34,509 nucleotides of DNA from Eubacterium sp. (GTDB lineage: Bacteria; Bacillota; Clostridia; Peptostreptococcales; Anaerovoracaceae): positions 1-34,509 of the forward strand of contig JAETRU010000029.1 in NCBI GenBank assembly GCA_021769965.1. Reading direction: 5' to 3'. The position numbers and the translations under genes are program-made. The stretch's first letter is position 1; each line of letters starts with the position of its first letter. The notes under the pieces are model-generated. The model searched no databases and was not told the DNA's origin. It worked only from the letters and a program-made list of their open reading frames with translations. Below are positions 9,773-11,624 of this stretch, piece by piece.

Positions 9773-10660
9773 ATGGAATTAAAGAATCTGAAAACCTTTC
9801 AGACTGTGGTCGATCAGGGCAGCTATCAGAAGGCTGCCGATTTTCTGGGCTATACCCAGTCCACCATCACCGTACAGATACAGCAGCTGGAGCAGGAACT
9901 GGGCGTTCCTCTCTTCGAACGGGTAGGACGCCGCATGGTGCTGACCCAGATCGGCGAGCAGGTGCTTGCCAAAAGCCGGCAGCTGCTGCGAGATGCTGAC
10001 GAGCTGTCCGCCATCGGCCGCAGCAGGCAGGCCATGAAAGGGACGCTCCGCGTGGACATGGCGGAATCGCTGCTCTGCTATCAGATGCAGCCTGTCATCT
10101 CCGCCTTTCGAAAGGCCGCGCCTCAGGTACGGCTGATCCTGAGAAACCGTACATCTTTGAAAATCGCTGAAAACCTTCGGGACGGCAGCTGTGATCTGGG
10201 CGTCACCTATGTCATGGAATGGCATCGGGACTGTCTCCACGTAGAAGCTCTGGACAATGCCTCTGAGGTGATCCTGGTGGCTGCCCCCGACTTTGCATTC
10301 CCGGACTTTACTACGCCTCATCAATCCAAACCTGTCTCTCTGATCATCGACGAAGCAGACAGCACCTTCCGCCGCCAGCTGGAAGAATACCTGCGATCCC
10401 GGGATATACAGCTGGACGAGACCATCGAGCTTTGGAGCACGGAAGCCATCAAGCGCTGCGCCATGGCAAACCTGGGCTTTACATATCTCCCCCGCTTTGC
10501 CGTCAAAGAGGATCTGGCGGCAGGACGTCTGGTAGAGCTGCCGGCACCCATCTCCGGCGTCAGAAACCCGATTCTGTGTGGGCGTCATAAAAACCGCTGG
10601 ATGACGCCTGCCATGGAGCTTTTCTGTCAGCTGCTGCAGGAAAAGCTGCCGCGGGAGTAA
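9773..10660 (+). CDS. LysR-family transcriptional regulator
   Basis: The 295-residue protein has the LysR winged helix-turn-helix at about 1-60 (MELKNLKTF, then the recognition region GYTQSTITVQIQQLEQELG and LFERVGRR) and a periplasmic-binding-protein-like sensor domain from about 90. Length is standard. Such proteins bind DNA as tetramers and usually control the divergent neighbour, here the dehydrogenase homologue. The ribosome binding site is weak, which suits low expression of a regulator. The effector is unknown. The stop at 10660 is followed after 35 bp by the alternating repeat array. Confidence 0.92.
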   Translation: MELKNLKTFQTVVDQGSYQKAADFLGYTQSTITVQIQQLEQELGVPLFERVGRRMVLTQIGEQVLAKSRQLLRDADELSAIGRSRQAMKGTLRVDMAESLLCYQMQPVISAFRKAAPQVRLILRNRTSLKIAENLRDGSCDLGVTYVMEWHRDCLHVEALDNASEVILVAAPDFAFPDFTTPHQSKPVSLIIDEADSTFRRQLEEYLRSRDIQLDETIELWSTEAIKRCAMANLGFTYLPRFAVKEDLAAGRLVELPAPISGVRNPILCGRHKNRWMTPAMELFCQLLQEKLPRE

Positions 10661-10695: not shown

Positions 10696-10926
10696 TGTTT
10701 CGCATTTCTGCCGATTCATCGGTAGTTTACGAAACTTTTTTTCGAAAAAAATCTAGGAAGTTTCGTAAACCAAAGAAATTCAAACAATTTTACGAAACTC
10801 GCTTGGCTTTTCTCAGCTCTAAAGTTTCGTATTTTAAAAAGATATAGCTTGTTTTACGAAACTCTGACCGGCCTTCCCTTAAAAAAGTTTCGTATTTTTA
10901 CCTCTTTTACGGTAATTCACGAAACG
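10696..10926. repeat. Array of eight 9-bp motifs in alternating orientation every 31-32 bp
   Basis: The motif TACGAAACT and its complement AGTTTCGTA alternate: complement at 10696 (7/9 match), forward 10728, complement 10759, forward 10791, complement 10823, forward 10855, complement 10886, forward 10918 (7/9 match). The steps are 32, 31, 32, 32, 32, 31 and 32 bp. The six inner copies are perfect; the 22-23 bp between copies are unrelated to each other. Neighbouring copies can pair; the best hairpin is a 13-bp perfect stem (10725-10737 with 10758-10770). The array sits between two convergent genes, so it is not a promoter region for either. It is unlike CRISPR (inverted neighbours, very short repeat) and resembles a phased protein-binding array or a BIME/REP-like series of hairpins. 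Confidence 0.9.
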
Positions 10927-10969: not shown

Positions 10970-11563
10970 TCAATGGGGCCAGATCAGACTGACAGCGCAC
11001 AGCGCCAGAGACGCTGCCATGACGATGTCTACGGTTTTTCTATGATTCACAAAAAGCTTCTGCATGGACGCTCCGGCAAAAAGCCAGACCAGATTCGCAA
11101 CAGGCCCTGTAAAAGGCAGGAACAATCCCACCGCCAGCAGCGCCCAGAAGGAGTCTGTATATGGCAGAACAAAGGACGCCAGCGCCGTCAGGCAGTAGAC
11201 CATGATCTTCACGTTGGTCAGCTGAACAAATAAACCCTTTCGGAAACACGGCTCGTCCGCCTTGTCTTCGGTATCACTCAGAGACGACCGCAGCATATGC
11301 CATGCCAGCCACAGAATATAGGCCGCGCCGATCCACGCCAGGATCCTAACGTATTCGTTGAGCACTGTCCCCAGCAGATAGGTGATCAGCACTGACGCCA
11401 TGGATACGATAAAGAAACCGATGAAGATGCCTCTCCACTGGCGCAGAGCCGGGCCGCGCCCGTACCGCAGGGCCGCCGCCAGAGAACAAAGGTTGGCAGG
11501 CCCCGGCGTAATAGACGTCACATAACAGTAAAGCAAAAAAGTAGGAATCATCGTGCTTGGCAT
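10970..11563 (-). CDS. LysE/RhtB family amino-acid exporter
   Basis: The 197-residue membrane protein has the LysE family hallmark ITPGPAN in the first helix region, followed by GRGPALRQWRGIFIGF and about five or six membrane helices. Members export basic or other amino acids and derivatives; substrate cannot be told from sequence. The start at 11563 is chosen because GGGAGGTGG lies 5 nt before this ATG, while an in-frame start 18 codons upstream has no ribosome binding site. The gene is convergent with the LysR gene, so that regulator is not an obvious partner. No ordinary T-rich terminator follows it; the alternating repeat array does. Confidence 0.87.
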   Translation of the reverse strand: MPSTMIPTFLLYCYVTSITPGPANLCSLAAALRYGRGPALRQWRGIFIGFFIVSMASVLITYLLGTVLNEYVRILAWIGAAYILWLAWHMLRSSLSDTEDKADEPCFRKGLFVQLTNVKIMVYCLTALASFVLPYTDSFWALLAVGLFLPFTGPVANLVWLFAGASMQKLFVNHRKTVDIVMAASLALCAVSLIWPH

Positions 11564-11595
11564 AGAAGCCACCTCCCTTTTCATAAGATGTCCTA

Positions 11596-11624
11596 ATTTT
11601 ACCACAGCACAACTCATTTGAAAA
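11596..11624 (-). promoter_or_regulatory. Possible promoter of the LysE-type gene
   Basis: On the minus strand TTTTCA (11619-11624) and TAAAAT (11596-11601) are 17 bp apart. It lies just after the stop of the hipA remnant. Confidence 0.45.

Follow-up and report, generated by a model that had tools for sequence, protein, structure and literature searches.

The REP/BIME elements with their TnpA-REP (RAYT) proteins are dispersed intergenic palindromes of lineage-specific sequence, which occur in arrays with alternating orientation, one of which lies next to a gene dedicated to the system. In a different type of system, exemplified by the Lrp arrays and the paired NrdR boxes, sites about three helical turns apart lie on one face of the DNA at the promoters of defined regulons. 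A further precedent is an orphan intergenic spaced motif of no assigned function, GAATCCAT(N)23ATGGATTC, from Bradyrhizobium japonicum USDA 110 (Tong, Schliekelman and Mrazek 2017; PMC5217627), with 52 copies, 47 of them intergenic and almost all about 50 bp from the 3' end of a gene. The elements presented here resemble this motif, as characterized in the accessible text of that paper, in their inverted, palindromic 8-bp arms around a variable 23-bp middle and in their preference for intergenic positions near 3' ends; they differ in word and phylum, and the same text carries no mention of arrays, helical spacing or a linked gene (PMC5217627). We do not claim a common origin for the two. The initial annotation of the locus had held that no described element has this layout; this is nearly right, the Bradyrhizobium motif being, by the accessible text, the one exception of identical geometry (PMC5217627). 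A literature search with the word GAATCCAT and the genus name returned Tong et al. 2017 as its sole match (PMC5217627), and in a body of literature that covers subscription journals thinly, neither arrays with helical spacing nor an array-linked nuclease of such a kind turned up.

The window, i.e. the entire stretch of 34,509 nucleotides analysed here (contig JAETRU010000029.1 of the Eubacterium sp. assembly GCA_021769965.1), contains an array between two convergent genes, as had been noted: one codes for a LysR-type regulator (9773..10660, plus strand) and stops 36 bp before the array, and the other codes for a LysE-type exporter (10970..11617, minus strand), with its 3' end at 10970, 44 bp past the array. 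Eight copies of a 9-bp motif indeed alternate strictly in orientation. Six are perfect copies of TACGAAACT (10728, 10759, 10791, 10823, 10855 and 10886), and these are all the perfect copies in the window, where a 9-mer, counted on the two strands of 34.5 kb, would by simple arithmetic be expected about 0.26 times; the two outer copies, at 10696 and 10918, match at 7/9 positions. The start-to-start distances are 31 or 32 bp throughout, and the stretches between the half-sites are unrelated (mean identity 0.33), both in agreement with the earlier description. Two of its elements require revision. The periodic array stands, but the conserved half-site is the 8-bp TACGAAAC rather than a 9-bp motif, the ninth base carrying only 0.26 bits across 74 half-sites of the genome. 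Likewise, the alternation stands, but the copies are not equivalent sites in a series of eight: the building block is a 39-bp pair, GTTTCGTA-N23-TACGAAAC, of which the segment 10697-10925 holds four, with starts at 10697, 10760, 10824 and 10887. The first, a 39-bp spaced palindrome (10697..10735), has the left arm GTTTCGCA with one mismatch; the second (10760..10798) and third (10824..10862) are perfect in both arms; and the fourth (10887..10925) has the right arm CACGAAAC with one mismatch. The intervening linkers, without common sequence, measure 24 bp (10736..10759), 25 bp (10799..10823) and 24 bp (10863..10886). The window also contains a tRNA gene (Rfam RF00005) at 226-297 on the minus strand; an Rfam scan of the window and seven array loci at the gathering threshold recovered two tRNAs only and no structured-RNA family on the arrays.

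In the source genome of the window (hereafter G000), we found a total of 39 units at 14 intergenic loci, with one to five units per locus. All are exactly 39 bp long except for two, of 38 and 40 bp, at C42:2206 and C71:38823. The 39-bp pairs are set apart from background by a gap in their mismatch distribution, with 37 pairs at zero or one mismatch, none at two and four at three; a control with the pattern read backwards gave 12 matches at up to three mismatches. One of the three-mismatch pairs, C80:17210 (L040), is perhaps the remnant of a decayed unit; the only good unit of its locus follows at a distance of exactly 64 bp. In every run of well-matched half-sites, at each of the 14 loci, the first half-site reads GTTTCGT and the last ACGAAAC, which identifies the 39-bp pair as the building block; departures from this are solitary half-sites with one mismatch, found at C29 and C80 at a distance of 62-67 bp. 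Isolated half-sites show no excess over the control in this genome, as only 6 of the 57 matches to the half-site pattern GTTTCGTAWWNY lie outside arrays, against 19 for the control pattern. The statistics on information, polarity and hairpins were computed on the 37 units of 39 bp, i.e. on 74 half-sites. Among these, positions 3-6 of the arm are invariant and the arm as a whole is nearly so; an A/T-rich triplet comes next, beyond which there is little information, with 0.01-0.36 bits from position 13 inward, and the unit middles are mostly unrelated across the genome. Selection on the arms is clear among units within one genome. These elements share with REP/BIME their alternating orientation and intergenic location; in place of a 20-40 bp palindrome conserved throughout, they display just 8-bp arms with an A/T-rich flank. 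Nor do they have the repeats of CRISPR, which are direct, identical and about 30 bp long.

As an explanation for such arrays, chance or recent tandem duplication has a negligible probability, and for the array in the window it is refuted. Duplication has a role in places, with the C24 array and some arrays of relatives being partly recent duplications; the mismatch gap, the unrelated middles and a first-order Markov control of 1.68 Mb, in which the de novo scan described below recovered no array at all, are inconsistent with either process as the general source. The initial annotation had named a chance frequency in the genome, or the lack of any trace in relatives, as grounds for refutation; the searches found neither. 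A second word is present in the source genome at C82:7076-7238 (L042:7076), where three TTGAGCAA-N21-TTGCTCAA units recur at 63 bp; this array is probably young, its middles being similar (0.84).

The spacings between unit starts in G000 are nearly all 62-66 bp, with one of 74 bp; hence, a test of spacing over multiple helical turns rests on the relatives. Sister species possess arrays built of another word, GTTGTGCA-N23-TGCACAAC, which retains the 8-N23-8 geometry and differs from the G000 word at 3/8 positions. With up to two mismatches, GTTGTGCA(N)23TGCACAAC is found 51 times in G011, 100 times in G004 (a program count) and four times in G007; the remaining 10 of the 13 genomes of the genus have 0-1 matches, as does the control. 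In 21 arrays of these three genomes the arms of a unit are 31-32 bp apart in 87 of 96 pairings and 30-33 bp apart in 90, the other six (4 or 14 bp) being taken as chance half-sites. The distances between units, from which 19 same-direction neighbour pairs were left out, deviate from a multiple of 10.5 by at most 1.5 bp in 76 of 79 cases, in classes of 11, 21-22, 31-32, 40-43, 52-54, 63 and 73-74 bp; of the remainder, two (40 bp) are within 2 bp of a multiple and one (27 bp) is off. For the phasing of these distances, R is 0.91 overall and 0.84 for the 42 distances outside the common 30-34 class. When the distances between unit starts were counted once per locus, leaving out the orthologue L235, the single-unit L239 and the 62-64 class, R was 0.87 at 10.5 bp (n = 30, Rayleigh p about 1.7e-10), with the best periods at 10.35-10.5 bp and one distance, 165, lying 3 bp off; for the 11 distance classes, the value from a simulation with any period between 9 and 13 permitted was 0.0003. 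The sister-species units are thus spaced by whole multiples of the helical repeat, which puts all neighbouring sites of an array on the same helix face. The earlier suggestions of a spacing under constraint and of copies sharing one helix face are borne out by this clustering at whole turns, and more strongly than by the window alone. Together, the fixed distance within units and the whole-turn distances between them point to double-stranded DNA read on one face by a rigid dimer, i.e. to the arrays as docking sites.

The half-site geometry is also that of operators, and the location of many G011 arrays upstream of a gene, along with several neighbours coding for regulators (two LysR, two GntR, two TetR and one MarR), could be taken to suggest that the arrays are operators of a global transcription regulator. 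The units resemble the Lrp arrays and NrdR boxes in their one-face, three-turn spacing; they are unlike them in lacking a location at the promoters of defined regulons. Of the 14 loci in G000, seven lie between convergent and five between co-directional genes, two are ambiguous and none is divergent. The 19 sister-species arrays analysed in this regard comprise 14 co-directional, three convergent, one divergent and one ambiguous. An operator function is, hence, very improbable indeed, as none of the 12 assignable G000 loci is divergent and seven are convergent, single half-sites are not in excess and the genes neighbouring the arrays have no functional grouping, with no sign of a series of promoters of functionally related genes.

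An exact three-half-site pattern of the G000 word had no match in a collection of 84,980 species, from which records near the genome of the window may be missing, or in viral contigs. A looser alternating pattern, searched in 349 genomes of the family, gave 32 matches in G000 and one or two in five others. In the control column of this search, G019 stood out with a different word of like design, AAAGCAACGGAA-N18-TTCCGTTGCTTT, which an exact scan found in one named genome, MAG UR.bin2. Eleven of the 13 G019 loci have four units and the others six and two; eight are co-directional and five divergent. The four-unit composite element of the G019 loci (L107-L130) has unit starts 72, 52 and 72 bp apart, and in it the arms facing the short central linker carry a matching change (TTGCCTT/AAGGCAA). 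A de novo scan for any 8-mer alternating with its complement at least four times, applied to 1.68 Mb of stretches from 15 genomes, recovered arrays in G000, G007, G011, G275 and G312 and none in nine other genomes; as the stretches of G000, G275 and G312 had been picked for earlier matches, these results are not frequencies. An alternating word in G005 was rejected as a plain tandem repeat (middle identity 0.96). The scan also gave two matches with four half-sites, L140 (AAAATATG) and L150 (ATATGCAC). A covariance-model search of 296 family genomes, with at most 22 candidates scored in each, yielded weak matches in eight genomes beyond G000; two of these led to G312 and G275, and the remaining matches looked by eye like chance or unrelated sequence. 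We also considered a link to phages: the G000 and G019 array patterns had no match in viral contigs, and the one viral match to the sister word, L241:2609-2669 (IMGVR_UViG_2593339183_000001), is a repressor-operator-like region with GTTGTGCA half-sites at another spacing and was taken as unrelated.

The relatives carry further words. In G312, units of the form TTTTCGACGT-N23-ACGTCGAAAA with unrelated middles and starts 74, 95 and 73 bp apart occupy L167:6490-6773. The same genome has an approximately 250-bp repeat at L167:14766, L169:11378 and L170:7960, with three TTACGAAA-N20-TTTCGTAA units; examined by eye for the terminal inverted repeats and target duplication of a MITE, its copies have outward inverted ends and no clear duplication. 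A second word, TTGACAAA-N19/20-TTTGTCAA, forms 35-36 bp units at several places in G011 (L140, L141) and G007 (L148). In G275, tandem arrays of period 93 at L163:6810, L166:1725 and L164:14367 bear inverted arms GTAGAAAAA or AGCCAACC around conserved middles. The unit-start spacings of G312 (73, 74, 95 and 125 bp) are consistent with helical phasing, and those of G019 (52 and 71-73 bp at 10/13 loci) agree with it with a shift of 1.5 bp. As the spacing of half-sites varies with the word from 27 to 35 bp, three turns within a unit are not universal; this variation, the offset of the 72-bp G019 spacing and the reliance on relatives of G000 for the multi-turn test count against the docking-site reading.

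Arrays also turn over between relatives at the same genomic places. The junction between radA and a histidine kinase gene holds a five-unit array in G000, and the same convergent junction in G003, G005, G007, G008, G010 and G012 contains no 8-base word that occurs three times, counting its complement. Both G011 and G007 have arrays at the citF-citC place with different unit numbers and spacing, and at another place common to the two there are four units in G011 and a single unit in G007. A hand count over four alignable orthologous units finds the arms differing at 4/64 and the middles at 11/92 positions. Between recent orthologues the arms thus appear hardly more conserved than the middles, and, with four units, short-term selection on the arms is not evident, which is another point against docking sites.

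The units have a tendency to fold. Their inner parts form more stable structures than shuffled sequences do (z -5 to -7, leaving out two C24 tandem copies), and the 23 linkers pooled genome-wide show no excess folding. Against half-swapped units, with one C24 tandem copy left out, the z-scores are -3.3 and -4.9, or -1.7 and -3.8 once the five units of highest stability are removed; the median unit folds no better than swapped ones (percentile 0.44). Four other word sets show a weaker excess in the same direction (z -3.6 to -0.7). Some single units at C29, C80 and C82 are strong hairpins near stop codons, and the polarity of the units (p = 0.013) agrees by eye with the direction of transcription at four co-directional loci, which hints at a role at the level of transcripts. 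One might, hence, interpret the units as hairpins in RNA or single-stranded DNA (BIME/REP-like elements, terminators or mRNA protectors), with the arms as stem and the middle as loop; the prevalence of convergent loci in G000 (7/12 assignable, none divergent) would fit this. The initial annotation had listed such hairpins among its possibilities; as the main explanation, we consider them quite improbable in spite of the excess hairpin potential. The whole-turn spacing has no reason in RNA, the middle is fixed at 23 nt, the median unit has no folding advantage, five of the 13 G019 loci are divergent and complementarity at the pairs adjacent to the arm is below expectation (11 vs 16.9 and 9 vs 17.7, of 37). 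Moreover, most units, as 8-bp arms around 23 nt, lack the GC-rich, short-loop hairpin and T run of intrinsic terminators, with possible exceptions at C29, C80 and C82; radA has, by eye, a separate GC-rich hairpin before its array. Hairpins may matter for some single units and leave the spacing rule unexplained. Conversely, the folding of the inner parts, which a plain double-stranded site does not need, and the hint from unit polarity weigh against the docking-site reading. Arm variants form G-U pairs on one strand and A-C pairs on the other; by eye, the identity of the G-U strand showed no association with unit polarity (6 to 5).

Among 114 array-side proteins from seven genomes, one family is found in five genomes and no other in more than two, with several of the latter representing orthologous loci. 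Its members adjoin arrays with five different words in G000 (C42), G011 (L141), G019 (L113), G312 (L167) and G275 (L166), at distances of 23, -13, 233, 121 and 70 bp, respectively; the G312 member adjoins the TTTTCGACGT-N23-ACGTCGAAAA array, and the G275 member adjoins one of the period-93 tandem arrays. As stretches not picked for arrays, totalling 1.33 Mb, hold three members, one of which is the G011 array neighbour, this recurrence is not expected from the abundance of the family. The family proteins have about 260-300 residues. On its right, the C42 array has the gene for a 258-aa protein without any convincing match in Pfam, NCBIfam or the PDB; this protein shares 45% identity with its counterpart on the right of the G011 array, which has the other word. 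RadA is 87% identical between these genomes. Members without a nearby array occur in G000 (C51, about 4 kb from its array, and a fragment on C81), G005 and G009, and the gene was not found beside the G004 (5) and G007 (3) arrays examined; both facts count against a docking system with a linked gene. A second branch of the family, with no arrays nearby, is represented at L037:6932-7750 and L041:259-702 (G000), L134:5956-6819 (G005) and L158:14856-15653 (G009).

Nine aligned members have in common the residues and motifs G, RSKSE, PDF, EH, G, Y, K, G and T. The acidic and lysine signature of the PD-(D/E)XK enzymes is present as the invariant E156, D186, E201 and K218, which we take to be the catalytic set. 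The C-terminal part matches the end of the PADLOC model PDC-S68 in all six proteins scanned (E 1e-32 to 1.6e-18), and a PD-(D/E)XK model matches it weakly in four of the six. The C-terminal part of about 120 residues is thus related to that of the candidate defence proteins PDC-S68 and HEAT_CxxC_PD-DEXK (PADLOC-DB); PDC-S68 models exceed 1200 positions, whereas here this part follows a short N-terminal part in a gene beside arrays. On plasmids and phages just the C-terminal part is found, in genes for AAA ATPases or helicases where annotated. The structure model of the linked protein (mean pLDDT 83.6, pTM 0.54) shows a helix, a three-stranded sheet and a long helix followed by an alpha/beta part; a structure search with it gave no match at E <= 0.001, with the restriction-endonuclease-like protein 3ijm at ranks 2 and 3 (E 0.14 and 0.17). 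This result and the scant Pfam and NCBIfam matches stand against the role proposed for the protein. By sequence, its C-terminal part resembles PD-(D/E)XK nucleases. The G000 and G011 proteins are 41% identical in the N-terminal and 49% in the C-terminal part, and other array-linked pairs 11-24% and 29-35%, respectively; the lower conservation of the N-terminal part is as expected if it reads the word. The proposal of a landing array for a DNA-binding protein is supported by the one-face spacing along with a recurrent array-side protein as the candidate reader.

The likeness to REP/BIME extends to dispersed intergenic inverted sites, a lineage-specific word and an adjoining gene, the counterpart of the dedicated gene of the REPIN/RAYT systems being supplied in 5/7 genomes by another protein family. 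The differences are that the linked protein probably has a restriction-endonuclease-like part and is not a Y1 transposase, that the arms alone are conserved and that the spacing is fixed and helically phased. A direct link to RAYT was rejected: the one Y1_Tnp protein of G000 (assembly 96.9% complete), a 156-aa frame, is IS200-like by length and score, and its locus has no units. A Pfam scan of 69 proteins beside or near arrays found none named transposase or recombinase; given the nuclease-like candidate protein, the arrays may have a role in recombination or mobility, the initial annotation having suggested a recombination substrate.

We posit that the arrays and the linked gene probably form a two-part system, in which arrays dispersed through the genome are docking sites on double-stranded DNA. 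The comparisons presented above indicate that the site is an inverted pair of 8-bp half-sites at a fixed 31-32 bp with a free middle, one to six sites occurring together; that the word differs between sister species with the 39-bp geometry kept; and that, in each of five genomes with five words, a member of a single gene family lies next to one array. The arms would be bound by a rigid dimer, or some larger assembly, of the linked protein, which would co-evolve with the word. The nuclease-like protein might copy or maintain the units, making this a mobile or selfish system akin to REP/RAYT. Alternatively, the arrays could be structural elements of the chromosome, at which another host protein bends, bridges or anchors DNA, the linked gene being incidental or a selfish passenger. 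Such a role would be compatible with the one-face spacing, the array size of 229-427 bp (median 301, in 19 sister-species arrays), the absence of any other common theme among neighbouring genes and the units having intact arms around randomised middles. We regard this alternative as rather unlikely, as one protein family recurs beside arrays with five different words, and turnover of the word between sister species would be unusual for a core structural protein. As to the purpose of the docking-site system, we lean slightly towards a mobile or selfish, REP/RAYT-like one over a purely structural one in the chromosome.

More broadly, we tentatively raise the possibility of a bacterial repeat system of a new kind, in which a nuclease-like protein, its gene lying next to one array, reads dozens of dispersed, helically phased dimer sites, whose arms turn over between sister species (GTTTCGTA to GTTGTGCA) as the geometry remains fixed. 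It would be a counterpart of REP/RAYT with a restriction-endonuclease-like protein, either spreading its sites or organising the chromosome, and the Bradyrhizobium motif could be a distant instance of it. The spacing rule, fixed within a site and in whole turns between sites, offers a word-independent physical signature that can be searched for by geometry in any genome, and the linked protein is a concrete candidate for the reader. With sister species that differ in word and agree in geometry, the co-evolution of protein and site is directly testable. The arrays with their linked gene would constitute a second, unrelated case beside REP/RAYT.
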